Positions 4,701 through 38,587 of a DNA stretch of 64,000 bases are shown here, in pieces. Made by a program: the position numbers and the translations under genes. The notes under the pieces were generated by a model. The model saw only the letters and a list, made by a program, of their open reading frames with translations. It was not told where the DNA came from and searched no databases. Position 1 is the first letter of the stretch; every line of letters starts with the position of its first letter. The DNA comes from Antedon bifida (Eukaryota > Echinodermata > Crinoidea > Comatulida > Antedonidae): NCBI GenBank assembly GCA_963402885.1, contig OY727098.1, positions 1,669,001-1,733,000 of the forward strand, read 5' to 3'.

Positions 4701-7700
4701 ATGTGAAATATGTATTACCAATATTCTTATGATACTGGAGAAATCCAGATACACTACCGGGAACCGGGTACAAACATGTACTGTTGGTTGTTGTTGTTTA
4801 TAATATATTAAGCTCTTTCCACACTATAAAACTAGTTTGAAAATGTGATGATGTGCCCAAATGTGGTAGTGATATGACGTCATCGTGTCCATATATGGGC
4901 ACATCACATAAGTTTGATATCACCATGGCATCAACAAAATTTGCTCACAAATCCGTCACAGGAATAATACCAATCTCCTGTTCGGTTTCTTCTGTTTTTT
5001 TGTACGATGTGCTAAAAGTGCCGAGGTATTTACTCTGTAATTGGTTTCAGACACAAAGTTTTTACGTGGAGGGTAAAAACCCGTACCATTTTCATCACTC
5101 ACGATAAAACTTCGTCTTTTCATCTTGCTGTTACTGACAGTATTTCTGTATTACTTTAAATATAGTTTTAAAAACAGCACGTACATTCTTAATGTAAAGA
5201 AGCCAGGAAAGCTTCACACTGTAGATTTAGATGCCAAAGAAAAGCCATATGCTGTCAAAATGCGTACAGATGACGAAGGTTTGAAAGAAGAGTACGTGTA
5301 CACGATTTGGGGCGAGTGGAACCGATGTAGTGCGTGTAACGTTGCTGGTGAACGGAGACGTTTTGGTAAGAATAATGAAGACTCTGTTATTATAATAGAA
5401 ATTAAACAGGATATATAGCGAGAAATATCATCTAACCTAATTTAATCTATGTTTACATAAAGCTCGGATCCGGTCCGGTGACAAAAATCTGAGCTGTTTT
5501 GTATGGAATCCATGTGAACGCGCTTCTATTATTTTTCATTTGCATTCTCCAGCGCCACCGGATCCGGGCAGTGGTGTATGAACGTAATTTTAAGTAGGGA
5601 TGGTTTTTTTGAAAATGTATCTTTTTGGTATTAGGGTTCTGCTTTATAAAACTTAATCACGAAGAGTATTTTGGATCTGTGCCATGTGGTAGTGCAGAAG
5701 CCAAACGTTACGACAAAAAGAATGCCAAGCGTTTGGATGAAGTTCTTGTTGAAAGGTGTGACATCACCTGCAGCGATGGTTCGTTAGTTCTCTTCTTTCC
5801 ATTTCAAAAACTAATAATAGGCCCTGAATGCATGAAATGATGTAATAAACCAATGTACTACACTGGTCGTATATCGGGCCTGACGAGAACGTTTCGAATT
5901 ATATTAGTCAGACAAATGAGAAAACAATAATATGACCTATGACCTATGTTAAGTTTCTATTATTTGTTTAGGCGACTGTATTTTCTATTTCTATTTTAAT
6001 TACTAATGATTATTTTTACATATTTCTTTTAGCTCAAAAGGCTTATGGTATTCTAGAGAAGATGAACCTTTTAAAGGAATTAAATCTAGGTAAGTATCTT
6101 ACAATTAAAAGGAACTTCGGGTAAACGTTTTTGTTAAGGAACTGCAATGACCGTACACTTTGCTGAGGGCGAAATTATTGGTTTATGCGAAAGCGTTGGT
6201 TTATGCACATGCGTATTCATACTTCTGTCGATGCGGATGACAAAAATGAGCAACCAATCAGATCTTTGGAATATTCGATCCATACGAATGGATTCACCCA
6301 GTTGAACGAATTATATCAATACCTTTTTTAAAGGCCGGTTCCCCACTGAACATTTACACGCGAAGATTTATTTTATTAAAATTAATAGCAATTTATGTTA
6401 AATTCTTTAAGCTTAAACTAAATTGTGATTAAAGACTCTGAACATTCTTGATTATTAAACATGTTTTATTTCAAATTAAAACGAATAATCCAATACACTC
6501 CAAGGGCATAATGACATAGAACATGAACAATTATTTTTTTTTTATCAAGATAACAATTTTCAATTTAATTGCGATTTTTTAATTGTATCCTGTCAACCGG
6601 CGCCTTAACATAAATGTTAAAGAAATAAAATAAATATCGTGAGAACTCTCTTAAGAAAATTAATAGAAACAGGGTCATGAAGGCTCTTTTCTTGGAGACG
6701 AGAGATAGCCCGATCACATCTGCGACTTGTCGAAAATGCAAAGAAAAACTAATATTTAGGTCTAATCATGGACGAATAAGACAGTGTTCATGGTCTAATA
6801 ATTTTATATTGTTTTACAGTAAAACAACGCCGGAAAGTTCATTCTGGTGACAATATAAGATTGAAATGTTTAGGGTAAGTTAAAATATATTAAGGTCTGT
6901 CTACACTATCAAACTTTATGTGACAAACATGTATGATGTACCCAAATATGATAGTAATATGACGTCATCATGTCTATATATGGGCACATCACATTTCACA
7001 TAAAGTTTGATAATGTAGACACTAGCTTTATAGTCTGAATTTCTCGTTGCTCTCTCTCTGCCTATTTGATTATTTCCATTTTGTATATATTTATGCAGAA
7101 CAATTTAGTAACGTTATGGCTACTGAAATGTGTGATAGTTGAATTAGTAGGCCAGTGTTAAATGGTTAAAATGGCACGTTATGACGGACTGTCTAGAGAT
7201 CTTCACATGTTCAGTTGACACATCGTATTTATTAATAAATTGTCAATCACTAAACATGCTAGATGGTTATCCGTCTTACCGTGCCATACAAGTGAGAAAT
7301 CATGATTTTGCATATGTTCATCTCATGCATTTTTCTTTTTACATAGAACATCGGTGGACGACCCTGTCGGATGGAGAAACGGTTCAACTGAGCTTAATCT
7401 TCAAGAAGTTCGTAAAGGCGTGGGCCATCTCAAAATAACAATGGCGCACGCGTTGATTATCATCAATATTAACAAAACGGACAGTGGCGAATATGATTGT
7501 CACGTTGGTGGCGAACTGAGAACCACATATGTATTGACAGGTATATAGTAGGCCTTACTAGGAAAAATACCTCTCCCCCTCTGCCACACTCACTACATGG
7601 TAGTTTTCAATAACAAAACACTTCTCACTCCATCAATCAATCAATTTCATCAGCATGTCTGCCAGTACAAATCGTTGCTGAATCATAACCCTCTTTCGCA

Positions 7701-10877: not shown

Positions 10878-11396
10878 GTACATAACAAAAAATAAACATA
10901 ATAATTCAGTGTGTTTGTGTTTATGCACGCGCCTTTTGGTCACGTGCACTTTATGTCCTTTTGATTAAAAAAGATCTTTTAATTTAATGCTAAAGTGAAT
11001 TTAAAGTAATAAATTATAGTTTATACACGTCAGCACAAGTACTTTCTTTTAACTAAGGATGTGGTATATAAATGTGGGTAGATGTCAGAGTAATAGAAGT
11101 GTTAGGATGAATGGTATATTGTTTCTACAGGGTAATTATTTGTGTTGTGTGTAAAGTTTGATTTAAAAATAAGATTATGTGCCTGGCTCATAATGTAAAG
11201 TGACGTCAAACACGTCGTTTCCGTTTGCGCACAGTCGCAGCCTTGGCAATAATCAGCAAGAAAAAAAATCACCCCAAAAATGATTTTTGTCAGATTACTG
11301 TATTGACCTTTAAGTCAATGCTAAATCTATAAACGTCAATTCCATAATTTCCTCGAAATTATTTAAATATTCATACGTCAATATTTCATAAATCTC

Positions 11397-11406
11397 TTAT
11401 ATATAA
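11397..11406 (+). promoter_or_regulatory. Possible TATA box of the FAS1/Cys-module gene
   Basis: The sequence ttatatataa lies about 155 bp upstream of the ATG at 11558. AT-rich context makes this a weak call. Confidence 0.3.
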
Positions 11407-11557
11407 GTGAGATTTAATAGAGGAACATTTTGTAAACAACGCCAATATAAACTTCGTACTACTTTATCTTACCCAGAGTCTAAACATTTTGTTGAACGAT
11501 AGTAGTTGAATCGAATATAGCATACTTAATACAAAGGCTGCCTTTGGAAGACTAATA

Positions 11558-13197
11558 ATGAGAGCTTTGTTTTATATTATATTATTAGCGTTACCGCTCA
11601 TTTTTGCTACTCCTACTAGAAATCGTAGAGATGACGATGATGATAGCGAAGAAGACAGTGCAATAAGAAGGGCTGGAGGTAAGACATAATTCTAATTGTA
11701 TTATCAAATTAATAATTGTGTTAACTACTTCGTTGTTGTCTTACCGTACAACTGGAAAAATGTTGAACATTATTAAAATATTGTTAGCGGTATATGTTGT
11801 TAAGTTAACCAATTGTGATTTAAAAATCCATTGTTTATGGATCGTAATAATTAAATTAATAACAATAATTAATTATCATCAATGCTATAAACATATTTTG
11901 TTGTTATACCACTATTAAAAATCAGTCTTTTATACTTCTTAACATACTGTAGAATTACAATCATGGTCATCACCACTCACATCTATTCCATCAATATTCA
12001 TTAGATGGTTATTAAAGTTGCTCCTATGAAATTCATATCTCATAACTAAAAATGAATTATTATCTTTATCATGAACCTAATTAGGGTCATAGTTGGAGGT
12101 CTCAAACTGACGCGAAAGGGATTAGTAAAACAATTTGATATTTAATAATAAATATAATTCTGTTTCCGTTTTATAAATAATAAATCATGATTCAACGCAA
12201 TTGGTCAAATAACGATGTAAACAATAATACACCTGTTCATTATTTATTCCAAAAATTGAAACAAAACAACTGTGATTTTAGGTCAAATTCGCATCATTTA
12301 GGATAGAATTGTTGATGTTTTTCCGTTATGTTTTATCTTTGTATGAGACAAGCACTATTATTTCCACTTGTTTTGTGGACGAAATAAAGTTATCTTATCT
12401 TAATATATAGAATACTTCTCCATCTACAATGTATTTTTTGAGTTATGGAGCATATATTTGCTGTTTGTTAATTAGCAGATAAGATCACTTTCGATTAGCG
12501 TCGTTGTTTCTCTGGTTAAATACACCTAAAAGTACACATGCACAGGATTGGAACCCACCACTGTGTCGATCCTTAACCGACGTGACGCCCATAATAACCC
12601 CGTCCCCACGTCACGCACACGAACGGTGGATGTCTCTTACGTGAGAGGAATTAGGATGAGGAATTATGTCCTAATTTCTTTTTTTAATCGTAAAATCGAA
12701 AGCGTCCGACCATATAATGACTCAATTAAAGGATTAACGTTTTCACGCAAAAGTTTATAATGAAAGGTTGTATATTACAAAAACAAAAATACGAAGTTAT
12801 TTGTGTATGGTTTCTTTTTAAGACAGCAATTTTTCGCCCTTAATATTTTATTTCAGGCGTGTAATTATAATAGTACATTTAAATCTTAATTGGATTTTAA
12901 AGTTTTTTTTTAAATTCACGCCTATACTTTGTAGAATAACCTAAGGCTAGAAACATTGTCTGCAATTGGTAAAATGCACAGTTTTTCCCGTATACACTAG
13001 TGTAATCTACGTGATATAAAAACTTTTCTTAAAATATGTATTTGTTTCTTTTACAGGTCAAAGGAATAATCCCTCATCTTATAGAAAAAGACAAAATTTG
13101 AATTCACCGGCTAGATATCGTGGCTCAAATGAGAGACAAACGAATCAAAAGTCTCAGAATTTTCAGCAACAACAAAAACAACGACGACGACAACAAC

Positions 13198-13231
<34 letters not shown>

Positions 13232-16200
13232 ACAGGTGAATAGAGGAGGAGGGGACGACGACAGCAGTGAAGAAGAAATAGAGCAGTTTTCCAGTCAATT
13301 TAGCATGGGCGTGATTGTAACTAATGAAAGAATAATAAATGCTGCTGAGACAGTTCAGGGGAATAATGCTGATGTTGCAGCTGGTGGTGACAGTAGTGCA
13401 GAAGACACGCAGCAGACTGCAGCAAATGTAGGTGGTGCACAACCAGTTGTTGCTGCTGACGTTGCAGCTGGTGGTGACAGTAGTGCAGAAGACACGCAGC
13501 AGACTGCAGCAAATGTAGGTGGTGCACAACCAGTTGTTGCTGCTGACGTTGCAGCTGGTGGTGACAGTAGTGCAGAAGAAACGCAACAGACTGCAGCAAA
13601 TGTAGGTGGTGCACAACCCGTTGTTGCTGCTGACGTTGCAGCTGGTGGTGACAGTAGTGCAGAAGACACGCAGCAGACTGCAGCAAATGTAGGTGGTGCA
13701 CAACCAGTTGTTTCTGCTGATGTTGCAGCTGGTGGTGACAGTAGTGCAGAAGAAACGCAACAGACTGCGGCAAATGTAGATGGTGCACAACCAGTTGTTT
13801 CTGCTGATGTTGCAGCTGGTGGTGACAGTAGTGCAGAAGACACGCAGCAGACTGCAGCAAATGTAGGTGGTGCACAACCCGTTGTTGCTGCTGACGTTGC
13901 AGCTGGTGGTGACAGTAGTGCAGAAGAAACGCAGCAGACTGTGGCAAATGTAGGTGGTGCACAACCAGTTGTTGCTGCTGAGGTTGCAGCTGGTGGTGAC
14001 AGTAGTGCAGAAGACACGCAGCAGACTGAAGCAAATGTAGGTGGTGCACAACCAGTTGTTGCTGCTGACGTTGCAGCTGGTGGTGACAGTAGTGCAGAAG
14101 ACACGCAGCAGACTGCAACAAATGTAGGTGGTGCACAACCAGTTGTTTCTGCTGATGTTGCAGCTGGTGGTGACAGTAGTGCAGAAGACACGCAGCAGAC
14201 TGTAGCAAATGTAGGTGGTGCACAACCAGTTGTTTCTGCTGATGTTGCAGCTGGTGGTGACAGTAGTGCAGAAGAAACGCAACAGACTGCAGCAAATGTA
14301 GGTGGTGCACAACCAGTTGTTGCTGCTGATGTTGCAGCTGGTGGTGACAGTAGTGCAGAAGACACGCAGCAGACTGCAGCAAATGTAGGTGGTGCACAAC
14401 CAGTTGTTGCTGCTGACGTTGCAACTGGTGGTGACAGTAGTGCAGAAGACACGCAGCAGACTGCAGCAAATGTAGGTGGTGCACAACCAGTTGTTGCTGC
14501 TGATGTTGCAGCTGGTGGTGACAGTAGTGCAGAAGACACGCAGCAGACTGCAGCAAATGTAGGTGGTGCACAACCAGTTGTTGCTGCTGACGTAGCAGCT
14601 GGTGGTGACAGTAGTGCAGAAGACACGCAGCAGACTGCAGCAAATGTAGGTGGTGCACAACCAGTTGTTGAAGGTGATAATGCGGATTCTGGCGACAACA
14701 GTGAAGAACAAACAGATGTTGTAAATCCTACACCGTTAGCAGAAATTAAAACGAAAAGTCCAGCAATTGTTCTCGAACCAACAACACAAACGGTAGAAAT
14801 AATCGCAAGTACACCTGAAATTAGATCTACGTTACCTGTAAAGACCACTCAAAATGAAGGACCAACCATAGTCGAAATAGGTACTGTATTAAATAAAACA
14901 TTCTCTTCCTTTAAATTATAACTCCTTAATTTCATTCTGAATAATCATTTTGAAGATATTCGTGTATTTATATAAATATTTTTCCAAATTGTATAAGTGT
15001 CTTTTATTAGAGAGACTTTTATCAGAAGTTTTTTGTGATTTGGAAGATTCCCATGATTGTTATTCCAACATAAATCATTTTTAAATTACTATTGCGTACT
15101 TACACATATGTAATGTTTTCTTTGTTAAGCTGTGAATAGTAAGCCTTCTCGAAGTCCGCAAGGTGAGCCATATTACATTTTCTGTACTTAACTTTTAAAG
15201 AATGTTTTTAGAAAACAATAGTTATGACATTAGCCAAGTCATTAATAATTAATAATAATTAATCAGTTTATTACTGTCATCCAGCTTTGATGTACTATTT
15301 AACAATGCAAACACGTTTCTATGTCACAATGCCAACGTTTTTAATTACATATCAGAACAATTGAAAAATATTGAATTTTTATTTTGTTTTAGTGATGCAG
15401 CAAACCGTTACTACATGCGAATGTTATGGTAACATTGACCGACTAACACTGATTTGTGAATACTTTAGTAATGAAACTGAAGCAAATACGTATGTGTAAC
15501 TTCTTTATTTAAACATGATATATAGGAAATAGTAATTACATGAACACAGTTTTAAACGCCGATGCAAATTAGGGATGATAAAAATCTTACATGTTGATTT
15601 TATCAGGTTTCCGGAATGCAAAACCTAAGTGACATTCACACCCACATATCATCTATAATTGAATTATATATGTTCAGTTCATTGGCTAATTGTATTGGTG
15701 TGAATCCGCTTTTTTTTATATTTATTATGGATCCTGCCAAAGAATCGAATTTAAACAAATTAATTGTTCTATTGCTAATATTTTAAATTGGGAATATTGT
15801 AATTAGGCCTAATTGTATTTCGTATTCATGGCATGATTTCATTGGATATTCATTTATTTGTTATACGGCTTAAGCTCTATCTACACTATTAAACGTTATG
15901 TGACAGAAATGTGATGTGCCCATATGGACATGATGATGTCATAGCACTACAATATTTCAACATATCACTACCATATTTGGGCACATCACAAACTAGTCTG
16001 ATAGTGTAGACAGATCTTAAGGCCTGTTTTCAACTATGAGAATTTGTTCATATATATAGAAAGTTTATATCAGTTTATACGCATGCGTATTCATACTTTC
16101 ATCCTCAACTTTTCTGCTCCGATGAATTTTAGTTGCTTGAGCCTTTCGTAACGCAAGTGATTTGACCAATCGCAAGCGACAGTTCAGGTGATCCGTTGCT

Positions 16201-19200
16201 TGCGATTGGTCAACTCATTTGCTTTACAATTACGTCCTTTGCGTTTTGTCCAAGTAGGAACCAAACTTTAACATGAACATGTTGTGCAGTAAATATTTAA
16301 TTCTTATTTTAGTGTATTCAAAGCTGAGTCATCAAATCCTGATATTGCATTTTGTTGCGAAGAAGAATCATTTCCTGCAATTGCCCGCTTACGATGTCTT
16401 CAAGATAGAAACGATCCTATTCCAGGTAGGATTGGATTAACCTACAACTTGTAAACAACTGGAACGTGTGCAACTATGTTTTTACATGTTTTTACATGTT
16501 TTTTTGCACTCAATACAATAACATAAATGTCTTTCATTATTCATCGAAAGGGAAAAATACATATGCGTTTTTAAGTTTGTTTTGCTTTCAAAATCGATGG
16601 TTATTTTTCCTGGATTTTTGGTAGGAAATAGAGGATTATGGTTATGTTACCCATCGGATATTATTAAACTATAAATAATAATTTAAACAGAAGCTAACTG
16701 TCTTGCGGTAAGGCAACCTTTGGTAAAGTAATACAATGGATAAAACATATTTTCTCATGATATCCTGCATTATGAGAAGTAGGCTTATAACATCTGTATT
16801 GTTATGTTGGAATTTCCAGATGTTCATGATGGAACATAGTATGTTAATTGTTTTCGGGAAGTTCCTGGTTTCGTTATTTTACTGTTTCTTTTTTGTTTTG
16901 TGTGTGTAGGTCATTTATTTGACTGTCTTAACAGAAAATGAATTTAATTTTAACCTAAAACATGTATTATGTATTTACAGTTACTACTCCGTCTCTGGCT
17001 CCTGTAATTATTCAAAACGACACTCCGTTTACATGTACTTGTTCAGGACAGATTAAAGGCGGCATCGTGTAAGTTTCTAATGCATACATTGAAATGGTAA
17101 AACAATGAAGGCATATAAACAATCATACTATATTTTTTTGCTTTAATTTTAACGTTTGAAGATTTTATTTTCCATTCGAAAAAATATGCCCCGTATTAAA
17201 AATATGTAGACCTGTTTTTACTGTTAGGTGGTGATACAAATATCCGTACATAATATCTTTATACTGATGGTCACTGATGGCCAGTTGATTCACACACCAC
17301 ATGGCCCGTGCTCACTAAAACAAAATACGGTCAGTCGAAAATAACATCAACGCTTTGAAATTGTTACTTTGCGTGTGATTGACAATGCATTGGCTTTTCA
17401 TTTCCTCAAATTTACCCCAATCATTGTGGCTAACTATACGGCCTTTTCTATCGATTTGCACCCAACCAAAAGAATGACTGGCTTAAATTTATCTTAATAT
17501 TTCCAATGTCTGATGGCACGTACACTTTTGGAATATGCAATTCATCGGAATTTGTATAATAATTTATAGTGATGATAATTCATTAATTTCTCTTTATTTT
17601 GGACTTCATATCCATAGCATAAACATCCCACATAATACACAAAAGCTACTCAACAATCTCGACACCAAACAGTTTACATTTAGATAATTCCTTTTTCGAA
17701 TCAGCTAATAATACAAACCAGCAATAATTTTTAATCTCAACAATCATATACTTTATTTAAGGTACAAATAATAATTGTGTCCATCTCTGATATAAAGCCA
17801 AAGAAAAATGTTGGGTTCACGTCCGGGATTTGACATTTTTTGAAATAGGGCTTTACAATTATTTTTTATAGATCCTTTAAATGCGATTTCACGTCTCTTG
17901 GAACAGATTCCACGTAAGTACAAATCGTAGGGTAAATTATGTCAGTTATTGAATATTTTATTAAGAAATTATAACTTTTTAATTTATTGTATTTATTTTA
18001 CCCCTATAATGTGGTATTGTATTGTAAGCCAAATATCTCATTGTAATTTGTATATCTAAACATTATAGTCTAAGTGAACGCACCTTCATGTCAGAGTGTG
18101 CTGCTAGTTTTAATGTAATATTAACATTATAATATTAAAGAGTTAGCTTTTTGTTTAAAATACTGTAATGTTTTTTCCTCTTTTGGGGCGTAAACATCAC
18201 TTTTATTCCACATTAAAATCATCATAGTCACGTCAGCACTATAACATCTTCCTATTATTTTCATTATTATCACATTTTTGTTATTTTCTAATGTAAATTA
18301 CAATTTGATCAACTTCATCAGTGTTAGGCCTATACAATTTTAAATTTTGTAAATTCACTTTATATTCCATATGACCTCCTTTTTCATTAATTTAAAGAGG
18401 TAGGCCTGAAGGTTTAAAAAGAAAAACAAAAGTTAACACGACATCGTTAACCATTTTGTTTCGTTTCCAAGCACCGTTATAACATATATAATTTCCTTAT
18501 GGTTATCATTATCATATATTTCATTTTAAACTATTTTACATAGAAATAACATTTTTTCTTTTTTGAGTTTTCATTTTTCTTTTTTCTTTACCGTAATGTA
18601 TTTATTTAAAGGGAGTACTCGGTAACTTCTGAAAACACAGTCATCATTGACTGCTGTAACCCAAGCGAAGGAAAATACAACTATGCAGAAACATTGCAGT
18701 GCTTAAAGAATGAAGACCCACAAGCAGGTTTGTTGTTATTTAGGCTTAAGCTCTGTCTACACTAGTTTGACAAAAAAGTATGATGTGCCCAAATATGGAG
18801 TAATATGATATCATCATGTCCATATATGGGCACATCACATTTTGTTGTCACATACAGTTTGATAGTGTAGACAAAACATTAATCTGACATTTCAATCGCC
18901 AAGCCAAATCAAAGCAAAGTACGATGTCCATAGTGACCTACTAGGCCTACTTACCTCCCCCAGCCTCATACAGTAGCTATCCATTCGTAACACATGTGCA
19001 ATCCATTTCCAATGCCATTTTCTGACTTTTTCGCCTATCATATTTCTTTAATATATCAATATAAAGTGGCTCAAAGACACTGATCGACCCGTGATATATT
19101 GTAAGCTCCCTGATTTCCTTTTGATTGTCATACGATGACGTTGGTAATGCGTACACTCTTTTAATTCTGTGTATAGGTGAAATACAAGAACTACCTACAA

Positions 19201-22200
19201 ATTCACCGTATGCATGTGGTTGTTCCTACGACTACCGACAAGACCAAATGTAAGTTTTTAAATGACTTTTTAATACGTTTACAATATTTATTTTTCATCC
19301 TAAATCTGATACTTTATAGTCGTAAAGCAGTACTGGTAAAGGATAGAATGTTTAAAAAAATTATAGTATTAATACAGTTAGAATAGGAACATTAATAATA
19401 GTTTTATAGTTTTATATTATTATATTTATTTATATTTTGATTATTAAAACCTTGTTATTTACAGATTTTACAAGTGTAGTTTTAAAGGCGAATTCAAGCA
19501 TGACGGGAAAGATCTTTTGTAAGTTTATTTATAAATGCAACTAAACATTAAATCTTTCTGTATTATGTTCTGAATCATAATTGGAAACATTTTTATTTCT
19601 TTTCTTTAGAGAATTCGATGTTACAACACGAGATTCAGGAGTGCAAGTTTGCTGTAGTCATGAGAAGAACTTCAAAGAATCCGTAGAATGCCTGAGAAAG
19701 GTGCAAAATGAGACAGGTAAAACATCGCTCATGTTTTAGTAATCAATGTTAGTAGGAATAAGTACCTAACCTCTTCGGGCCTCGTGGCCCATAAAGCTGC
19801 AGTGGCAATTTTCCAGTTGGTTCTATCAGTAGGAACAAGTATAAGTAGGCTAAATACAGTATTATGTTGTTTTTATGTCACAGACGAAATTTGTATGTCC
19901 AATATACCTATTTACTAACTTTGTTGCAGTCCCGGTTTTCTGTAATAATTTTGCTGTATTTGTTGTTTCAGATTATGAAGACTCCCTGGTTTCAACTGGC
20001 AATCGTGGTAAGTGACATCGTTAGTAATGGCAAAAGTTTCTTTGACAACGAATTGATCATTTACTATACACTATTAAATGATTCAAATGCACTGCAAGAC
20101 TAAGCATTATATGAAAACATAAATAAGAATAATTATTATAATTGTATAATAAATATATACATCACCAACACATTATTCCATAGGTGATACTCCACAGTCT
20201 CCAAACAATTTTATCGATCAATACGTTTGTGACTGCACGCCAAAGCAGCTTCTTAATGGGTAAGAAACTCTTTCATCATTATTGGTACAGTTATTTTTAG
20301 TTTTAGTTCTACCCACAATTCTCGCAATAACAGTATAAAGCTATAAAAATTAAATAGTAGATAGTAATAGTAGATTTATTTAAATTCAGCATCAAGCCAT
20401 TTGGTGAATACGCTTTCCAAAAATAGTACGCAATTATTGTCAACTTTAAGTGATCTAGATTTTCTTTTATTTCGGATCAATATTTCTGTAATATCAGGCA
20501 GTTCCAAACTATGATCTTTCATTATGTTGTACTGGGTTTTCCATTCAAGATGAAAACGTCTTATATTGTGTTTGAGAATAAAGAATAAATAGACCTATAT
20601 AAACTATATATTCTTCCTATTTATTTCTAGGGAGACTTACTACGAATGTGTTTTTCAGAGTGATTTTGGAACGTCTAAATAGTAAGTTTGATTAACCTTG
20701 GGTACAACAACGGTGATAATGAGTCATACATCTGCTTTCAAAATAAGTTGCTATAATTCGTCAAATCATAATGATTTAATTCATAATATGTATTTAGATT
20801 AAGTCAAAACAAGAATTCCGGTTTAATTCTCGTTTAGGAATGAAAACAAAAACATCATGATATGTCGCATTTTGCCGAATTATCCGTCGCAATCAAAAGC
20901 AAGTAAAATGGAAACGTTAATGTTAGCACAAACGTATAACATGTCGTTGATACACTAATTAAACAATGTATTGACGAACACGTAATTATAATGGCATGTA
21001 TTATATTTCACTTTATATTTATTATATTTCACTTTTAACCTTTTTTTTAGTAATTTTACCAAAACATCAGCATCGAGCGATATCTTGTTGTGTTGCAGCA
21101 CTATAGATTATACGGAACAAGGGGTTAATAATCGAGTCAAATGCTTGGCGGAAAAGGAAGATTTTACTCCTTCAGGTATTAATTAATGGTATTTTGATTA
21201 TTGCAACGAAATATATAACAATATTATAATTATTAACATTATTTCAAAAATCAACAGTAATATGATTGTTAAGGTTTTAAAACTATAGATAGGTATTTTG
21301 TTGATATTGTAAACGAAAGTACAGCAGAACATCTTCGGAACCCAACATTAAAGTGTCTCCTTCATAGATTCCTCGATTCCTCCACTGGATGGGGTTCATC
21401 TTTACTGTTTAACATTGTCCTCTCCTTTCACAGGAATGTTCCTTCTTAAAATTGGTGTCCCAAAGGATGGGTTATATTGTATATTATAATATACCAATGT
21501 AAACACAACAAATGTTATTATAAGTAATGATAGTCAGGTAACCACAGAAACCTAATGATCGATTTGCTTAACAACTTTAACCTTTCATAGGATCACCAAA
21601 CACATTCGATATTGTCGATGTAGATCCGAATGAGATTTACACTGCTGGAACTGGTAGTAGTAGACCGAGTGGATCCAGTAATTCATCAGAAACTGGATCT
21701 ATGTCAGAAACAGGAGGTGGATCTCCATCAGGAACAAGTGGCGTATCTGGATCAGGTAATTCATCTGGATCAGGTGCATCTGGAAGTGGTTCTTCATCTG
21801 GATCAGGTGCATCTGGAAGTGGTTCTTCATCTGGACCAGGAAGTAGAACATCAAGCTCGTCGTCAGGAACTTCTGGCAGTTCAATGATAACGGGAATGTC
21901 AGGGACGGGTGTAGTTACTGGAGGTATTTCGTCTGGAATTGTGTCTGCTTCAGGGAGTTCCACGGGATCAGGAGGAAATGCAGCAGGTGGTAGTGGAGTT
22001 TCAGGATCCAGTGGTGCATCAGGAACATTTGGTGTCGGTGGATCAGGAACTAACATAGTATCCGGGAATAGTGGATTTGAAAATGGATTTAGATGCCAAT
22101 GTTCATACAATAATATGTAAGCTGTTCATATCATTTTTATCACGATTAGAAAAAAAAACATAATTATCAAATAATACAAAATCTTTAGATACGGTCAAAG

Positions 22201-25200
22201 TTAAAATTTACCTTCACCAGTGCAGAAACGGTTTAAAAACGTAATACATGCACAACATATAACAATTGTCTTTTATCTTTTAATTTTAGATACTACAAAT
22301 GTGAATTAGAGGAGGAAGGAAGTGATCGGTATGTAAACTATTTAATTAGCTATTTTCTACTACTGCCTCCATATAAAACATCTAAAACATGAACATATTA
22401 CCATTGCTTTTAATGAGATACTACTTCTAAAAAATTATGCCCAGTTAGTTGTCTCAAATTCATACTATAAGTAATCAATAACACTTCGTTTAGAATTATT
22501 TTCAGTTATTTAAATTTCCAATTTACAGATACTTTTCAAAAGAAACCTCTTCGCCAGGAATACAACAATGTTGTGGCCCACAATACATCTTATCAAGTTT
22601 ACAGGACAAAATCAACTGTTTTTCATCATTTAAGAGTTGTACGTATAACTTAACGTTTTACTTTTCTATATAAAGAGTAGTATATCATTATAGTAGACTA
22701 CATTTTTGACAACTTTTTATCTCGTCAGGGTCGGGTAGTGATACAGGGACTGATGGCACAAGAATCAGTTCAGGCAATACCACTGTCATTTCTACAAATG
22801 GAGGTAGGGGAGCAGGGAGTACTGGCCTAGGTACAGGTACGGGAAGTACTGGAAGTAGTTCAGGCACCACTGGTACTGGAATTTCTATTGGTGGAGGTAG
22901 AGGAGCAGGAAGTACTGGCCTAGGTACAGGCAGTAGTTCAGGCAGCACTGGCACTGGTATTTCTATTGGTGGAGGTAGAGGAGCAGGGAGTACTGGAAGT
23001 AGTTCAGGAGTTGCAACTGGTGGAGCAGGATTTATATTCAGAAATGGAACAGGCTTTAATTTTCTCGATACAAACAGTTCAGGAGGATCTTTTCAGTCCA
23101 GCCAATGTTCATGCAAAATTGGTTTAGTCGGCTCAAGCAGGTAATTGATTTTAGATTTACATTTGTTTTCAAAATGAAACAAGTTGAGAATTCTCGACGG
23201 TTCGTCTTCAGAAGTAATGATTAAATAATGTTAGTAAGTTTTACTATAACAGATTTAATATTATGTTTATCAGTGGTGTAACGTAGGGCGCATGGCCCCT
23301 GGTTTAGCACTCCTAGGTGTGCCCTAACGCTGGAGGAAGTCGCATTGGACTGCTAATTCTCTTGGCCCCTTAATCTCTGAGGCCACTGATCTTTATAGAC
23401 GTTGCCAAGCACTAAACAATTGAAACAAACTATATTATTAAAAAATGGTTGTTAAATGATATTTAAAAAGTAAAGCATAAAGTTAAGTATAGAATTAATT
23501 GCAAGATATAATTTGGTAATAATATAATGTGTTGTCAACTGCGGATAATATAATCATATATTTATTATTTTACTTTCAGTGTCTTTTCTTGTTTATATTC
23601 CATTGGAACCGGAGAGGAAGAGACGTAAGCATCGTTTGTTAATATTAGGTTGTAAATAGTCATTTATGCAAAAACCAGGGCTTTCTTCTGTAAAACAATT
23701 CGCTATAACATTAATTCGTTAACAGCTTATCTTAGGTATATGCTAAGTGAAATCTGATATTGTTATGACAATTTTAAAAATCCAATGAATGAAAATTATT
23801 GTTTTAATATTTACCTGTTAATCAATTCATAAATCATAAAGTCCTAAAAATTGGAAAATCATTTCGTAAATTCTCGCTTTTTCAGCGAATTTCAAATGAA
23901 GTCAACGGACCAGCGTATCATTCAGTGCTGTACTCAAATCGGTGGTGACATGCTTTCCTGCTTTCAGAGTTACAATTCTACTAGCATTGAAGCCGGAGTA
24001 TCAGGTACAGGTTTCTCTAGCCTTGGTGCTTCTGGTTCTAGCACTTCTGGTTCCCGGACCTTTAGTACAGGTAGTACTGGTATGAATGGTACTGGTATGA
24101 CTGGTTCTCGGACCTTTAGTACAGGTAGTGCTGGTACTGGTATGACTGGTTTCGGAGTTTCGTCAAGTTCAACTGGAAATGGATTTAACTTTCTAGGAAA
24201 TGGAAATTTCTCAGCTGAACATTTTGAAGGAAATGAATGTAGCTGTCGGAGCAGTCAAATCAACGGTCAAAAGTAAGATTTTAAAAGAAACATATACCTT
24301 CAATGCTTCAACCATGTCTTATACTGTATTGTACAACATTATATCGCAATTAGCATTAAGAAATAACATTAGATGTTTCACCAATTCCTATTAGCTATAT
24401 ATTTGATTGTTTATATCTTTCTTTCTCAGAATATACAAATGCAATATCACATTTACGGTAGATAACAAACCTACGTAAGTAATCATTATAAACATTCTAT
24501 TTCACTATAAATTGTATTATAAACGATCACTAATCATTGCAATAAAATGTAACATCGTACGACGCTGCTTTTAGTGATTTAACTCACATGTGGTATATTT
24601 TACTTTAGAAAATTTGGAGCACAATCGTCTTCAAAAGAAATATTTGAATGCTGTTCTACATCGCTACCGATCGACTCGCGTGTGGATTGTCTTCTAGCGA
24701 TAGAGAGCAACCTCGCCAATTCATCAGATGTTAATGGTATAGTACTATTTTCTACTAAAATAAAGCTTTCTTTGCATAGTTACACAGTGTATATAATTAG
24801 AAAGATATTTAAAGACACTTATACTTTACCAAAATTATATATATATAAATTTAAAAAAACCTAAGTGTTTTTTTATATTAAAATTGAGCTAACTCATGTA
24901 ATGAACGTCCGTCGTTAGAAACAATACCTAATAAGTAATATCGATTTGGAAACGAATAAAAAAATGTCATTCATAACTAACTATATTGCGTTTAAATTGT
25001 GTAGGCAACGTGGATCGTGAGTCTGGGTATTTAAGCGATCGAGTTGGTTTAAGCAAGTCCGTCAAAAAACCAATCAAAAATTCAGATAGTACAACTCTTG
25101 TTCCATCGGCAAAAGCGATCCCGGTAAATATTAATATTTTCAATTTGTTTTTTATACGATAAAACAAAAATGTGTAATGCACAGAAATCATATACAATTA

Positions 25201-26754
25201 TTATAATGATGTTTGTTATTTAGGAATGGCAAGAGCATTCGCCAGGTAGTAAAATCGACGAAATGTCATCAGAAATTGTGATTAAAGGTGGAATTTATAC
25301 GGCGGAAGATTTTATGAAACATACAAACGATTCCACGCAACCTGAGGTAATTTTTATAAACAAAATCGATTACCTAACATATTCCAAGTGGCGTAATGCA
25401 GAGGCCTGAGGCCCCTGGTTTAGGAACTCTAAGTGGCCCTCCACGGCCTGTGATGTTTTTACCCTTTTTCGACATATTTTAATTCCTGTTTTTCTATGGG
25501 CACTGCAGCTCATGGGCCCCCATAAGCTCCGGGTCCCTTGGGTTTAGCCAGTGAGCGCTCATAGCCGTTACGCCACTACATATTCCATTATTTTGTTTCA
25601 TTCGTGTTACTATTTCTAATCATAGTAAAAATGTAGGCCTTATGAAATAATACTATAATCGCAGCCAGAAAGATTATTGTTTTGGCCACAACGCAAGTAA
25701 TAATATCGTCATCATCCTTTTGATTGTTGTTGGTATATGTCATTTTAGCTTTCAAGTACAGTCCAGTTGATGAAACAGACATGCGCAAGAATTGTTGACA
25801 CAACTTATAATACAGATGGCAGTATATTACACACCGTAGATAGAGTAAGTGTAAATCATGTTCGAAAATATTTTCTAAAGCTCTTTCTACACTACCAAAC
25901 TTTGTTTACTTCAAGGTTTACATTCTTAAGCTCTTTCTACACTATCAAACTAGTTTAGACAAAAAACCTTAGCTTTCTATTATGCAAAATGTACGATGAT
26001 GATAGCTATTTCATTGCTTCACAATCGCTCTCATTCTTAAATCAATTTATAATGTGAGAGTAAAATGGTTTAATAACATATTTTCTTAAATTCAGGTATT
26101 GCAAGCGCCACAATTGGAAGTATACGATACTATCTCTCGCGATGACCGGTTTTCAACTTCAGTCAGCCTAATAAACAATTTTGATGACGTAAAAGAAATA
26201 TTGAATCGTGACGATGTTACGTTTTTGGCGCCAACCAACGATGCCTTCGCGAAGTTTAAAAATGTAGAAGATATGACGAGAAATGAGCAAAGAAGAGTAC
26301 TTCTCTACCATATTGTAAACAGTAAGTTAAATACAATTATTGCTATTCTTAAAAAAAAAAAATTGTTTAAAGCTTTGTCTACCCTATCAAAATAGTTTGA
26401 CAAAAAGTGTGATGCTTCCAAATAGGGTAGTGATATGCTCAAATATGGTGATAGTGTCCATATATGGGCACATCACATCTTGTTGTCACATGAAGTTTGA
26501 TAGTTTAGACAGATTTAAGTATTAAAATATGAATATTAATATCAAATTGTTTGTCATTTTTAGGGAGACAATGTTGCAACGAATTTGTTCCACCACTATT
26601 CCCAGGTAGAAGGATGACTGCGGTTGGTGAAACTGTCTTAGTTCAACGTGTACGTAGCGGTTACGGAGCCGTAAACCGATCAAGAATTACGGAATGTGAT
26701 ATTACAGCAACGAACGGTGTTATTCATATAATAAATGCAGTTCTTGAACCTTGA
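11558..26754 (+). CDS. Giant secreted FAS1 protein with 29-aa repeats and seven six-Cys modules
   Basis: 28 exons, every junction in phase, 5403 nt: 11558-11678, 13057-14880, 15130-15162, 15393-15489, 16313-16425, 16981-17068, 17872-17913, 18612-18727, 19177-19249, 19465-19518, 19610-19716, 19972-20007, 20184-20259, 20631-20681, 21051-21175, 21591-22116, 22290-22328, 22529-22638, 22729-23140, 23580-23624, 23886-24272, 24430-24474, 24609-24736, 25005-25123, 25224-25346, 25749-25844, 26096-26321, 26564-26754. About 1800 aa. Order: signal peptide, acidic stretch, poly-Gln (about 77-100), fifteen 29-aa repeats (146-580), linker, seven six-Cys modules (about 660-1549) with Gly/Ser/Thr linkers before modules 5, 6 and 7, then FAS1 sequence (about 1590-1800). 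Motifs VTFLAPTNDAF and NGVIHIINAVLEP mark the intact FAS1 domain. No membrane helix seen, so secreted matrix or adhesive protein is the inference. I do not recognise the whole protein. Confidence 0.75.
12340..12402 (+). mobile_element. Possible retroelement 3' tail
   Basis: The stretch ends gacgaaataaagttatct followed by tatctta, a form common at LINE 3' ends. It lies in the first intron of the FAS1/Cys-module gene. Weak support. Confidence 0.25.
12530..12605 (-). mobile_element. Possible tRNA-derived SINE head
   Basis: On the minus strand a B-box-like GGGTTCCAATCC follows cgtcggttaaggatcgac by a tRNA-like spacing. The A box is poor and no folded tRNA is claimed. Confidence 0.3.
13165..13236 (+). 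repeat. Poly-glutamine (CAA/CAG) tract
   Basis: A run dominated by caa codons interrupted by cga/aaa encodes about 24 mostly Gln residues. It is a likely length-variable microsatellite inside the FAS1 gene's second exon. Confidence 0.8.
13371..14675 (+). repeat. Coding minisatellite: fifteen 87-bp units (29 aa)
   Basis: Fifteen uninterrupted in-frame copies. The unit starts DVAAGGDSSAE, continues (D/E)TQQTAANVGG and ends AQPVV(A/S)A. Copies differ by only a few residues (D/E, A/V/T/E, A/S) and share nucleotide identity including synonymous sites, so the array is recently homogenised. The last unit ends in EG instead of AA. Long open frames on the opposite strand here are a by-product of a unit length divisible by three. 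Confidence 0.95.
15870..16020. mobile_element. MITE, family A
   Basis: Ends ttaagctctatctacac and gtgtagacagatctta. Interior has gtgcccatatggac and atttgggcacatcac. It lies in an intron of the FAS1/Cys-module gene. Confidence 0.75.
16150..16238. repeat. Foldback: GTTGACCAATCGCAAGC-type arms
   Basis: aagtgatttgaccaatcgca is answered by tgcgattggtcaactcattt. It lies in an intron and shares words (gaccaat, ggaaccaa) with the foldback at 36119-36255. Confidence 0.5.
18746..18881. mobile_element. MITE, family A
   Basis: Left end ttaagctctgtctacac, right end gatagtgtagacaaaac. The interior has gtgcccaaatatgg and atatatgggcacatcac. It starts about 20 bp downstream of the donor of the exon ending at 18727. 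Confidence 0.7.
23271..23390. mobile_element. Truncated hAT-like MITE
   Basis: It starts cagtggtgtaacgtagggc and shares ggcccctggtttag with the better copy at 25387-25578. The far end is only partly matching. Confidence 0.4.
25387..25578. mobile_element. hAT-like MITE (AGTGGCGTAA...TTACGCCACT)
   Basis: The ends agtggcgtaatgca and gccgttacgccact are inverted repeats of the CAGTGGCGTA type common in hAT-derived elements. It is intronic in the FAS1/Cys-module gene. Confidence 0.55.
25876..25975. mobile_element. Family A MITE fragments
   Basis: Two left-end pieces of the family (aaagctctttctacactac and taagctctttctacactat) lie side by side with no right end, just after the exon ending at 25844. 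Confidence 0.5.
26368..26518. mobile_element. MITE, family A
   Basis: Ends ttaaagctttgtctaccc and gatagtttagacagattta, with atatatgggcacatcac inside. It lies in the last intron of the FAS1/Cys-module gene, 45 bp from the final exon. Confidence 0.65.
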
Positions 26755-28583: not shown

Positions 28584-31500
28584 ATGAATTTGCAGACAGT
28601 GTTTATTTTGGTCAGTTGTCTGTGGGCTATAGTAGGACCTGCTGTGAAGTTAGTTGTAGCAGGCGACCAGGAAATTGGATCAAGTAGTACGGAAACTGGG
28701 GTAAGTGTGTGAGCTAGCCTTAAATCGCACTCGGAACACTCTCGAATTTAATGTTAAGCTACACGCTAAGTTATGTTAATGTTTCAGTTAATGTAGGTCT
28801 ATTCACAATTGAAAAGTACTAAAATAGATTTTCATTTATATCCTTAAATATACAAATAAACAAGGCCATATACATGGCTGCAGTGTTAGTGTTTACCGAC
28901 CGACCAATCGACCAACCGACCGACATAGTGAGCTGTAGAGTCGCGTTTGCACGCGACTAAAAAGAGGAGAAAGGTATATAATATTGTAACGTGGTTTGTT
29001 CCGGGTTATGGGTAGTATTGAGTGGTGCCCGGAATATTGTGTTGTTTTTTTTGTGTGTTTATCATGATTTTCATTGCAATTTTGGTTTTTAATTGATTAA
29101 CTTGATTCTTCTTGATGTTTCGCAAATTTCCCTTCAAGTTTTTCATGGATGCATGTTGTCAAATGCCACTTCACTGATATCATAGTGTTCTGTATCCAAA
29201 TAAAAATAATTACATGCTATTATTCACAAACAATTTCCAACTAAGATGCCTTTATTTTTATTTATTTATTTTTTATTTACCTAATTATAAATACCTAGCT
29301 GCTAAGTAAGATTGAATGTTAATAATGATTTGAATAGAATTTAACTGCACTTGTCATATTGACGGAAATGACCAAATTAATGATAAAATCGTGTAATAAT
29401 AGTTATTGACCTTGAGAATACCACCATGTCATATTTCCTTTCTATTTATCCGACCAAAAATAATCAAATTTGCTTATAAAAGATACCATTGTCACTAAAT
29501 TGTATTGGAGTAAAATTGAATAACAACTCTATTAATCAACTTTCAACGAAAAGTATAAATAAATATAGAAATACAATGATACTTATAATGACAAAATAAA
29601 ATAAATAAATGAAACTATAATCATTACAACCTGCTACTCCACTGGGAATTAAGAAACTCAATTTTAAATGCATTTTACCATGACCGGTGAAGGACAACCC
29701 CGTCTGATATTATCTTTAAAAAAATGGGGGAATTCCATTAAGTTGATTCAGCGAATTTTCTCATCAATAGTTTCGCAATACCAGTCGTAAAGCGCACAAG
29801 TGCTGAGCATAAGCTTAATATTAGGGCTTAATTCGAATTGGTTACGCCTACAGTGCAACACAACAAGTCAAATAATATTCACGACTCACTGCCCATATAA
29901 CATTTTTCATAATCTAATCAATTAATCAATATAAGCAATAATATATGACGTCACAATAAATAAACCTAGTATAATAATATGGACGAACGAACACTGTGAA
30001 ACAAATGATTGTTTTTTCTTTTTAATGCTACTCGAAATGTCACGCAATATGTCCTTTTTTGGATGAAGTCCAACAGATTCAACCAGCATCTGCCAATTCA
30101 GTTAGTCAACCCAAGATCTGTTTCTTTTCATCTGTAATATCATACGCTGGTGACAATCTATCAGTTTTATTTTCTTTCATATTCATTTTATTGTTCCTAT
30201 TTGCTCGTTCCATTTCTGCTGACCTTATACAACTTTGCGAACCATGCGATGAGGGTAGAGTGTGAACTAGGACTGAACATGACAAGTAACGAGTTAACTT
30301 AATAGTGATAGAAATAGTGTATAAACTCTCTGATGCAATCAATTTATACAATAGCACAAATACGATAAAAATCAATAATTTACATAATAATATAGCACTT
30401 TTTTTTCAAGAAAATATTCTGGAGACAAAAGAATTTTAACCGTAGACAATCGAATAAACTGATATATGGATTACGGATTGATAGTGGTAGCAGTAGCAGT
30501 AGTTCAGAAGAAGTATTAAACGTTCAAAGAAATTTCATCAAAATCCGAAATCGGCCGGTAAACAGTATTTCAAGACACGGTAATCCAGAGAAGAGTGTTC
30601 ACTCTCCCAAGGGAAAACGAACTCACATTAGGAAAACAACACAAAAACCGAATACGCTATATAGCTACGTTACAACTACAACGAATTCACTCTCTCCTGC
30701 TACAAACCATGCCGCCCGAAAAGGTACGATTTTCCATGTTAAGCTTTTATACACTAATTTTAGCAATAACATCTTCCTTTCTGTATTTTTTTTGCTTATA
30801 ATTGGTCACCAACAATTGAAGCGCAATGTAATTTTGACTATAAGTCAAGGTTTTGCGTGGGATTTTTTATGTCATATCAAAATCACGCGTATGGCTGATG
30901 AGACTGGTAAATGTTTTTGATCAACGGACAAAACCGCAATATTTATTACAAAAATCATTCAGCATTATAATAACTTGAATACATTTTGTTTTCGCTCAAA
31001 ACATTTGCTTGCCTCAATGAATAATACTGCATCTGTTTGTTCACATGAAGATATCGGTTCAACATCATGGCAAAAAGAAACAGTGGGCCACTCATTTCTT
31101 TTTCTACTTTTTAAAATTTTAACTTACAAACATACATTAATCATTAAACATGGATGCAGTAGACGTAGTATTATCAATACTAGGCTACTATGTTAATATA
31201 ATATCATTATGTAAAGCTCTGTCTACACTATCAAACATTTATGTGACAAAACATGCTATATGCCCATATATGAACACGATGATGTCATTACTACCATATT
31301 TGGGCAAATCAAACTTTTTTGTCAACTAGTGTAGATAGAGCTTTATACATACTACGATAGAACATTGTATAGCCCTATGTAATTGCTTCGATCTATTATA
31401 GATATATTGTATAAGTCTAAATTCGTACTCCTCTCCATATGTTTTACTTTTAGATAACTTGTATGTAGATGTTTGCAACTCGAATCCTTGTAAAAATAAT

Positions 31501-34500
31501 GGCATTTGTTTTAATTATGTGAGCCATTTCTTGTGTTTTTGTAAACCGCCATACATTGGAAAAACGTGCCATCGGATTGGTGAGTATCAGCGCTAATAAT
31601 TATAAACTACGTGCACGATTGTGCCGTTTTAGCGGCACAAACGACGATGCAAACACTAAACAAACACCGTTATCTTTTATAGATTTTTGTGCATCTCGCC
31701 CTTGTAAACATGGTGGTATGTGCAGCCAGATAGGAAACAATTACTCATGTAAATGTCACAAACAATACACTGGAACTCACTGCGAACACAAAGGTATGTT
31801 TATACAAATATATGCTATAGATTACCGGCAAACATTGTTATCGTTTTAAAGTACTTTAGTGGTTGCTTAGTTTGTAAAATGTAACAGGAGTTAATAAATA
31901 AAAAAAAAACAAACAAAAATATACACAAATTATGGTTACTACAGAATCTTTTATTTGTTTGTAAACGCATGTTTGATTATAATTTAATTTATACAGATCC
32001 TTGTCTTCCGAACCTCTGTCAAAACGAGGCCATATGTTTATCTGAAAGTGGATCATTTCAATGTCAATGCCAAGAAGGATATCTTGGTGAATTCTGCGAA
32101 ACAGCAAGTAATATTAAGTATTTGTATATCTTTCACTTTATCTTTGATATAACCTTCAAAAACACTATTATGATAGATACATGCGTCGATAGGCACGTTC
32201 TCACACATGGTATGCTAATTTATTTATTACTATGTTAATTAAGCATTATGTAATATATTTTAACATATTTTGTTTATAGACCCATGTTTGCCGAACCCGT
32301 GCAGTAACAATGGACATTGTCACATTAGTGGTCAGAGTTTCTCATGTGAATGTACTCTGCCGTATACGGGACAGTTATGTGAAGGTATTGTATATATTAA
32401 TGTAATAATACGAAATATTATAATGTATCATGTAATCAGTAATGGTAAAACATTACATTAAATAAAATTAGTATGTTACAAAAACTGGTGGCTTTTTGAA
32501 CAGGCATTTAGACAAACCAAATAGGCCCTGTATTATTATACTCCTTCGTAGACGAAGGAAACGTAATTTATGCAAAGATGAATCTGCGCCTGCGTATTAA
32601 GCCCAGCATACACAGTACACCGTTCAGTTTATACCGGACTGCATTTGTTCGATTTAATGTTCGTCTACGAAACGAAAGCTCACAACTACCCAGCGGAAAT
32701 GACGTTCATTTTGTTATATTAACTTTTCGAAAATCATTTTCAGTATTATTTACATTACATTTTTTAGTAATCGCTGATTTTCAAATGTTTATGTTGCCGA
32801 ATCAATGTCTTAGTGACCCATGTCAAAATAAAGGAGTTTGTACGGCTATAGAGGGCGATATACACTGCCACTGTTATCCGGAATACACAGGCATCTTCTG
32901 TGAACATCCAGTACGCTATCATATAGGCCTACTATATTTTTATGGATATTTCAATGTTTTTTGAGAGTTGTACTGAAGCGGTTACCAAGATAAGGCAAAA
33001 TATAAAAAAATAAAATAAATTAAGTAGGCCTGCGTAGGCTAATAACACAGTTAAGATATTTATTCAGGTAACCTATTAAGGAAACTAACGTAGTCTACAT
33101 TTCCACCTGATTCTACTGTATCCGCTAGATTTGTCCAGTATCATTGGAATATTTGGTAATAGAACATCACATTTGTTTCACCTTCTAGTACTGTATCGTA
33201 ACCCTTAATCTAACCTTAGATACGGGAACCATTTCGATACAAATTTGTATCGATGAGGCAAATATTGTAGCATGTGGAGATGCATCACTGAGAATCGGGT
33301 ACATTTCAGTAGCACATAAATATGGAGTTGTTTACCTGCATATAAACAGCTCAACATTTAATGTAGAATATGTTTTTTTATATGTATTTTTTTTATTTTA
33401 CCAGCTGAATATCCAGCAAAGATTGGACCAAAGCTTACTGATCTGTTGTTTTGGAGCAAGATCGACGTCGCAAACATGATGAGCACTTCTACATTTTTTG
33501 CTCCAATAGATAGCGTTTTGTCGGTAAATAATGATATCAGACTGTACTCTATTTTGTTTTGATTCTATAATTTAGATGAATACAACTATTTAATAGCTGT
33601 CTTCTGTTATTTCTTTATTCGCTAGAATAAATGGTAAAATAACCTTACATAACCAATAATGTCCTATTGCTGTTTGTAATTGGGAATGGGGATCTTCTAT
33701 GGAAAATTGTCAAGATTTTCCTCATTGAGCTGCTGGGCCTGTAGTAATCATAGTTATTTTTTGTGTAATATGTCACAATTACTTCTAAAAAAATATTTTT
33801 TTCTCAGGATATTCATACAGATTATTTATCAAATGAAGAAACTGACGAAAGCGATTTGTCTGAATTTATATTGCGACATACAGTGTCAGGAAATAGGTTT
33901 TTAAAAGAGGATATCGTTGACAAAGATGGAAGGATTATTCTGCCGCAAAACAATAAAGAAAAATCGCCCACTTCACCGCTACAAAAGGTATCATATTGAT
34001 TGGCATTTATCCTTATTCTTGACTTTGACGATGGATATGTATATTTGTTTAATTTCTTTTTCCAGACAGTAATTTGAAATGTGTATTCGTTTTACAGGTA
34101 ACACAACTTCAGTCACAACTTGACAAAGTGTGTGGACGAGTCATCGATTCGGATGAATACAGAGGTCAAAGTTCAATACTGATCATAGACAAGGTAAGAG
34201 AAAACATGAAAGACAACAGTGTAGGTACGGACTGCGCATGATCATGTAGAGATGATTGTGCTCAAGTGCGTCAAGTGTATCATGCTTGAGCACAGTATCA
34301 CTAACTTCTAGTGGGAATAGAAACCACCTTAACTGGGTAAATAACTAAACTTGAATGGGCCCATATACTACCTTACCAATATTGTACCTTATTATAATAT
34401 AACATTTATCATGATGTGTACATCAATGGAACATGCTGCGTGTCATCGCATCGTGTTAAGTGATCGCAGCATACTCGACCACGATTGAAATCTGATTCGA

Positions 34501-38466: not shown

Positions 38467-38587
38467 AGGGACACTTTGCCGGGTTCCGAAGACGTCCCCT
38501 CACTAGGATAATAAAGTATTGTTGGGAACAAAAAATACGATTAAATCAATTGAATAGAAGGAATGATTACGATGAAGCTAACAAACT

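Follow-up and report, generated by a model that had tools for sequence, protein, structure and literature searches.

Among the described systems that come close to the gene reported here, the secreted proteins TGFBI (beta-ig-h3) and periostin are built from one EMI/CROPT domain and four FAS1 (fasciclin I) domains, and vertebrate FAS1 proteins bind matrix and integrins, as described in the consulted parts of two papers (PMC2824660, PMC6032426). We analysed a window of 64,000 nucleotides from the crinoid Antedon bifida (C11:1669001-1733000, which is contig OY727098.1 of assembly GCA_963402885.1; the genome comprises 315.6 Mb in 27 contigs). All coordinates below refer to this window unless another contig or locus is named. 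The window contains a gene, here called gene 1, whose predicted protein differs from TGFBI and periostin in having seven six-Cys modules, acidic repeats, Gly/Ser/Thr linkers and at most two FAS1 domains instead of four. From the N-terminus it runs through a hydrophobic leader, a Gln/Arg-rich stretch, fifteen acidic 29-aa repeats, the seven six-Cys modules, the linkers and a FAS1 C-terminus. We consider it fairly likely that the product is a secreted modular extracellular (matricellular or adhesion) protein of the broad FAS1 kind. A secreted or surface FAS1-bearing matrix or adhesion protein had also been proposed in an initial annotation of this DNA, and the sequence supports that proposal. 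Judged from its exon structure, gene 1 belongs to a tandem pair with a neighbour, gene 2, that has the same five-exon FAS1 pair and goes unmentioned in the title of the initial annotation.

Gene 1 was rebuilt by script from its window coordinates. Its 28 exons span 11558-26754 on the + strand, as do all exons given below for both genes, and add up to 5403 nt coding for 1800 amino acids. A single reading frame is kept across 28/28 exons and GT-AG borders are found at 27/27 introns, so the one in-frame gene of this length described in the initial annotation was reproduced. The same is true of its poly-Gln (22.7 CAA units), its fifteen repeats (15.0 copies of 87 nt) and its seven six-Cys modules, which contain 42 of the 46 cysteines. 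In the model with exon 18 ending at 22638, the used frame is the sole open frame in 19 of the 28 exons. This end of exon 18 (22529..22638) has a donor score of 3.7 versus -1.5 for 22635; both ends are in phase, and 22635 would give 5400 nt. With the earlier end at 22635 the exon 18-19 junction was soft, and the three sense frames held 1 (terminal), 81 and 168 stops, or 1, 49 and 103 without the repeat exon. The splice-site matrix was trained on gene 1 itself and therefore flatters the gene 1 scores. Exon 1 (11558..11678) carries the start codon, a hydrophobic leader that by eye is a putative signal peptide, and an acidic stretch. About 155 nt upstream of the ATG there is a possible TATA box (11398..11403, +), a weak pattern match that is one of four in 11001-11560, with TATATAA occurring 16 times in the window. 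Exon 3 (15130..15162, 33 nt, supported mostly by its splice sites) and exon 12 (19972..20007, a 36-nt linker) are short, phase-symmetrical (1-1) and skippable. An RGD tripeptide is completed over the exon 12-13 junction. We rejected it as an integrin site because 0.46 RGD are expected by chance, so that its presence is no better than chance.

The C-terminus connects gene 1 to known proteins. The Pfam family Fasciclin (PF02469) matches the C-terminal 250 aa with an E-value of 2.4e-26 (92.8 bits against a cut-off of 22), and the nearest solved proteins to the FAS1 part are periostin (9.9e-28) and TGFBI (4.8e-26). Exons 24 (25005..25123), 25 (25224..25346) and 26 (25749..25844) probably encode the N-terminal, middle and C-terminal parts of a first FAS1 domain, and exons 27 (26096..26321) and 28 (26564..26754, with the stop codon) encode the N- and C-terminal parts of a second. 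Exons 24-26 align to the first FAS1 domain of gene 2 with a global score, end gaps charged, that is reached by 0/5000 shuffles, and the score of exon 26 against its counterpart in gene 2 is reached by 0/20000. The initial annotation was right about the FAS1 end and counted it once; the C-terminus probably consists of two FAS1 domains, of which the first is strongly divergent.

Gene 2 (28584-35541) is an open 11-exon model of 576 aa composed of a leader, a Ser/acidic exon, four EGF modules and two FAS1 domains. Exon 1 (28584..28700) holds the start codon and a leader that is hydrophobic by eye, and exon 2 (30411..30723) a Ser/acidic and a basic stretch. The four EGF modules lie on exons 3-6 (31454-31579, 31683-31793, 31997-32107 and 32280-32384), all of phase 1-1, and the two FAS1 domains on exons 7-11 (33405-33523, 33808-33987, 34098-34193, 34578-34815 and 35327-35541). 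Taken together, five EGF-like exons, of which four are in the model, match Pfam EGF at 8.7e-33. The phases of the FAS1 exons are identical in the two genes (1-0, 0-0, 0-0, 0-1, 1-end). Two of these exons also have equal lengths, namely 119 nt for exon 24 and 33405-33523 and 96 nt for exon 26 and 34098-34193. Three of the four FAS1 intron positions fall in the same alignment column (42, 134 and 213), and the fourth lies in a gapped region (89 in gene 1 versus 102 in gene 2). In a one-against-one BLASTP comparison the C-termini match at 2.1e-15 over residues 81-249 of that of gene 1. Small profiles built from genes 1 and 2 and run over the 90 kb on either side added only one FAS1 match (E 0.99) and one module match (E 0.074), neither of them convincing. 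The pair might have originated by duplication of a FAS1-pair gene, after which phase-1 modules would have been inserted or exchanged, six-Cys modules in one copy and EGF modules in the other. If expressed as modelled, the two genes would clearly exemplify how adjacent genes exchange modules under the guidance of exon phase.

All seven modules of gene 1 (7/7) share the pattern C-x-C, aromatic-x-C (M1 has Leu in place of the aromatic residue), CC, and a last C with L or F directly after it. Module M1 is encoded by exons 4 (15393..15489, C1-C3) and 5 (16313..16425, CC...C) and is without the first internal intron. Modules M2 to M5 have three exons of their own each, carrying in turn the CxC, the third Cys and the CC...C part, with the full phase series 1-2, 2-2, 2-1. 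These are exons 6 (16981..17068), 7 (17872..17913) and 8 (18612..18727) for M2, exons 9 (19177..19249), 10 (19465..19518) and 11 (19610..19716) for M3, exons 13 (20184..20259), 14 (20631..20681) and 15 (21051..21175) for M4, and exons 16 (21591..22116, which begins with a Gly/Ser-rich linker), 17 (22290..22328) and 18 for M5. The CxC of M6 follows a Gly/Ser/Thr linker in exon 19 (22729..23140) and its third Cys is in exon 20 (23580..23624). Exon 21 (23886..24272) is a fused exon common to M6 and M7, with the CC...C part of the former, a linker and the CxC of the latter. Exon 22 (24430..24474) adds the third Cys of M7 and exon 23 (24609..24736) its CC...C part. In a leave-one-out comparison each module scores 28.4 to 42.2 bits against the profile of the remaining six, and in 7/7 modules 0/300 shuffles with the cysteines held fixed reach the real score. 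By these scores the seven modules are related to one another.

The profile search suggested in the initial annotation recovered the FAS1 part, and for the modules the outcome was different. The module profile had 0 matches in the PDB at E up to 10, and a Pfam scan of the seven modules returned four families, each matching a single module and the best with an E-value of 0.048. Using the M3 exon as a genome query (E up to 10) found only the exon itself and missed the sister modules, so this search is uninformative on how widely the module is spread. Two possible origins were considered. The CC...C end prompted a comparison with EMI, whose pattern we take to end in the same way, and this origin was set aside as none of the seven modules matches EMI at E up to 10. 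An EGF origin was rejected, with Pfam EGF matching 0/7 modules; in gene 2 each EGF module sits on one exon of phase 1-1, whereas a six-Cys module occupies up to three. From these PDB and Pfam comparisons, the six-Cys module is apparently undescribed. This leads to a tentative hypothesis, which we think has a lesser though real chance of being correct. The seven modules would found an undescribed disulphide family (C-x-C...[YFL]-x-C...CC...C[LF], spread over three exons and of class 1-1). As the tandem pair would then show, FAS1-pair proteins of echinoderms would swap whole N-terminal module sets, six-Cys or EGF, while keeping one five-exon FAS1 chassis conserved, and would so provide a lineage-specific toolkit for adhesion or matrix.

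Several observations weigh against a single gene with this architecture and against its pairing with gene 2. The gene 1 model is a prediction from genomic sequence. The exon 23-24 junction, which links the modules to FAS1, has a donor score of 2.2 and an acceptor score of 1.5, values that about 26% of GT and about 18% of AG sites in the window equal or exceed, and it is the weakest of the accepted junctions. The exon 2-3 donor is also weak (3.5, top 16%). Exons 24-26 on their own stay below the Pfam Fasciclin cut-off (E 0.028, 15.1 bits versus 22, covering profile positions 15-119 of 123). When end gaps are free, the comparison of the first FAS1 domain with gene 2 is reached by 197/2000 shuffles and is not significant, and an ungapped comparison of exon 24 is reached by 637/20000. 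The second FAS1 domain of gene 1, used as a genome query, missed gene 2 at E 0.001. The gene 2 model itself omits a fifth EGF-like exon (32768-32910), because the phase of its best donor does not fit the FAS1 exon that follows; this EGF-like exon may be decayed, alternatively spliced or linked via an exon that we did not find.

The weak exon 23-24 junction raises the question whether two genes have been joined. The modules would then stop at 24862-24864, with a poly-A signal nearby, and the FAS1 exons would be spliced elsewhere. Exon 23 is indeed open up to 24861 and an AATAAA is found at 24955. However, exon 24 begins in phase 1 and has no in-frame ATG after the preceding stop, and for this reason it needs an upstream exon. 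The homologous exon of gene 2 joins phase 1-1 modules in phase 1, and exon 23 likewise ends in phase 1. We therefore regard two genes as very improbable and continue with one gene of 28 exons.

The repeat array also belongs on the opposing side of the balance. Exon 2 (13057..14880) comprises a Gln/Arg-rich region with a CAA array coding for poly-Gln with Arg (13167..13234, +, 22.7 copies), the 87-nt array (13367..14670, +, 15.0 copies, 96% matches) and a Thr/Pro-rich tail. In the 87-nt consensus, 4/6 frames are open. Changes relative to the consensus fall on codon position 3 in 21 of 32 cases (16 silent, 16 non-silent), and we had taken this bias as possible proof of a coding repeat. The argument was dropped, as the skew does not stand out from what two other arrays in the window show, an 84-nt array with 14/22 changes on one position (the filter retained 9 of its 17 copies) and a 51-nt array with 39/76 (33 copies matched). 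Because these arrays are similarly skewed, coding by substitution pattern is unproven, and the array statistics do not demonstrate that the repeats are coding. Together with the weak exon 2 donor, this leaves room for a minisatellite that is open by chance and skipped or untranslated, the remainder being an ordinary secreted protein; the 84-nt and 51-nt arrays, whose units are also multiples of three, yield long open frames as well. Exon 2, on the other hand, is also open in the non-repeat sequence to either side of the array, has a strong acceptor (14.1) and joins exons 1 and 3 in frame; of its three sense frames, the used one alone stays open over the full 1824 nt. For these reasons a minisatellite seems unlikely to us, and we treat the array as part of the protein.

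Read as protein, the array is strongly acidic. It has a pI of 4.05, with 65 Asp/Glu and zero Lys/Arg in the 445 residues counted, and contains 15 S-x-E motifs, which we take to be the motif of secretory kinases. Such a composition would also suit an acidic skeletal or mineral-associated matrix protein whose repeats bind the Ca2+ of stereom calcite, and periostin has been linked to bone development in the consulted part of PMC2824660. The Pfam scans, which left the linkers and most of the repeat uncovered, turned up no known biomineralisation domain. Skeletal matrix proteins are not known to typically carry seven disulphide modules or a basic Gln/Arg head, and we find a skeletal role improbable compared with that of a general extracellular protein of the FAS1 kind.

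For such an extracellular protein we can suggest how the parts might work together. The hydrophobic leader would send the protein into the secretory pathway, and the terminal FAS1 pair would bind matrix or cell-surface partners or both, as do the FAS1 domains of TGFBI and periostin. The six-Cys modules, with three internal bonds each if all six cysteines pair, could form a stiff rod or a multivalent binding arm, spaced by flexible Gly/Ser/Thr linkers that are possibly O-glycosylated. The acidic repeats (pI about 4.05), lying beside the basic Gln/Arg-rich head, might act as an extended polyanion with affinity for Ca2+ or for basic partners, perhaps once phosphorylated in the secretory pathway.

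The same parts could alternatively belong to an underwater glue from the tube feet, the cirri or another adhesive gland, where FAS1 and Cys modules would give cohesion and the acidic repeats surface binding. Echinoderm glues repeatedly show a composition of this sort, with acidic, Gly/Ser-rich, Cys-rich and tandem-repeat proteins. In the consulted parts of two papers, the proteins of the sea-cucumber Cuvierian organ are mostly long tandem repeats and its adhesive is acidic with phosphoserine (PMC12472103), and the AC1 footprint proteins of sea stars are Cys-rich, some with EGF and one Ser/Gly-rich (PMC9382459). But the adhesive proteins of sea stars and sea urchins employ vWD, C8, TIL, EGF, hyalin and similar domains, as far as the sources consulted describe them, and the main texts of the tube-foot adhesion papers PMC9382459 and PMC7037938 do not contain the word fasciclin (0 occurrences in each). 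The composition would equally suit ordinary matrix, and it is from composition that an adhesive-gland role would be argued; we consider this role rather unlikely. Gene 1 is a concrete candidate for experimental work on adhesion, on the skeleton or on mutable connective tissue in echinoderms.

The taxonomic origin of the DNA agrees with the mention of tube feet in the initial annotation, which implied an echinoderm. Contig C27 is the mitochondrion (15,844 bases), and the conserved stretches of its COX1 write Asn as AAA, Ser as AGA/AGG and Trp as TGA, which is the echinoderm code; the Asn, Ser and Trp positions used for this reading are presumably conserved. A genome-wide FAS1 search gave at least 11 matches: five on C12 within 2.1 kb, two on C16 about 32 kb apart and four on C11 in the tandem pair. 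The C12 gene (5.047-5.049 Mb) is short and by eye has four FAS1 domains and a hydrophobic leader. On C16 (loci L063 and L054) a Cys-rich stretch seen by eye at L063:4664-4951 had no Pfam match, and a stabilin-like gene may lie here. By eye, a tandem array of about 73 nt is present in L063 as well. At least six EMI matches were found in the genome, all distant from the FAS1 loci, the nearest among the matches listed being about 176 kb beyond gene 2. This search, which runs exon by exon and may miss such a gene, revealed no EMI-FAS1 gene in the genome. Among viral contigs, a search for FAS1 relatives gave seven pattern matches with none confirmed, and a plasmid search with the FAS1 piece had no match.

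The window has further features besides the two genes. A probable upstream gene lies at 2048-7548 (+), with a highly charged low-complexity open stretch at 2048-3607, a TSP1-like WGEWNRC piece seen by eye at 5077-5418 (+) and a weak I-set Ig match at 7306-7548 (+) that is below the cut-off (17.2 bits). On the opposite strand we found an open stretch with an I-set immunoglobulin match (331-843, 8.2e-08), exons of a neurotransmitter-gated ion channel subunit (45936-49219; ligand-binding region 9.5e-12, membrane region 2.6e-05 and just under the cut-off) and a single 505-aa open frame that is Ser/Pro/Lys-rich towards its C-terminus (39159-40676, no Pfam match at 0.01). Further tandem arrays are present at 37048-38474 (84 nt x 17), 50927-52736 (51 nt x 36) and 62327-64000 (about 481 nt x 3.5). 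The long open frames of the first two occur in several frames, which cautions against calling open repeats genes. A dispersed short element around TGATGTGCCCATATATGG is found at 17 places in 876-44305 with up to 3 mismatches, where 0.07 are expected. Several copies form facing pairs 20-60 nt apart, which is MITE-like (resembling a miniature inverted-repeat transposable element), and some lie in introns of genes 1 and 2.

How does gene 1 compare with known systems? Sfp1 and other sea-star footprint proteins, and the outer-layer proteins of the sea-cucumber Cuvierian organ, resemble it as repeat-rich or Cys-rich secreted echinoderm proteins. They differ in being composed of vWD, C8, TIL, EGF and similar domains, or of tandem repeats without functional domains, and no FAS1 is mentioned for them in the consulted parts of the sources. 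Likewise, none of the titles and abstract openings in the literature consulted describes the architecture of gene 1. The claim in the initial annotation that no described protein has this order agrees with the module having no PDB match and, beyond single weak hits, no Pfam family, and is unproved across animal proteomes. Its term undescribed system overstates the case, as gene 1 would be a modular extracellular protein that ends in a FAS1 pair and has an EGF-FAS1 gene as its tandem sister.

The C12 gene shares with gene 1 the FAS1 domains, the hydrophobic leader and the genome. By eye it differs in having four FAS1 domains, no other module in the 7.5 kb read and seemingly different intron positions. 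The bep proteins of sea urchins are a similarly close system. Stabilins, the EGF-FAS1 receptors, are alike in combining FAS1 pairs with other Cys modules, and gene 2 has EGF followed by a FAS1 pair. Stabilins have EGF modules, seven FAS1 domains, an X-link domain and a membrane span, whereas gene 1 has at most two FAS1 domains and, as far as the Pfam scans reached, is without an EGF match. No X-link domain turned up in the scanned parts either, the linkers being outside the scan. On EGF modules and FAS1 number we do not class gene 1 as a stabilin.

TGFBI and periostin are the best match to the FAS1 part of gene 1 among solved structures, and they share with it secretion, which is predicted for gene 1, and a Cys-rich region ahead of FAS1. 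Besides the seven modules, the N-terminal 175 aa are without an EMI match (E up to 1), while the linkers, the remaining repeat and the stretch after it were outside the scan. With no EMI match in the scanned parts and at most two rather than four FAS1 domains, gene 1 is not a member of this family. If expressed as modelled, it would extend the FAS1 matricellular proteins, of which TGFBI and periostin are examples, by a disulphide module that is so far unannotated and by a new architecture.

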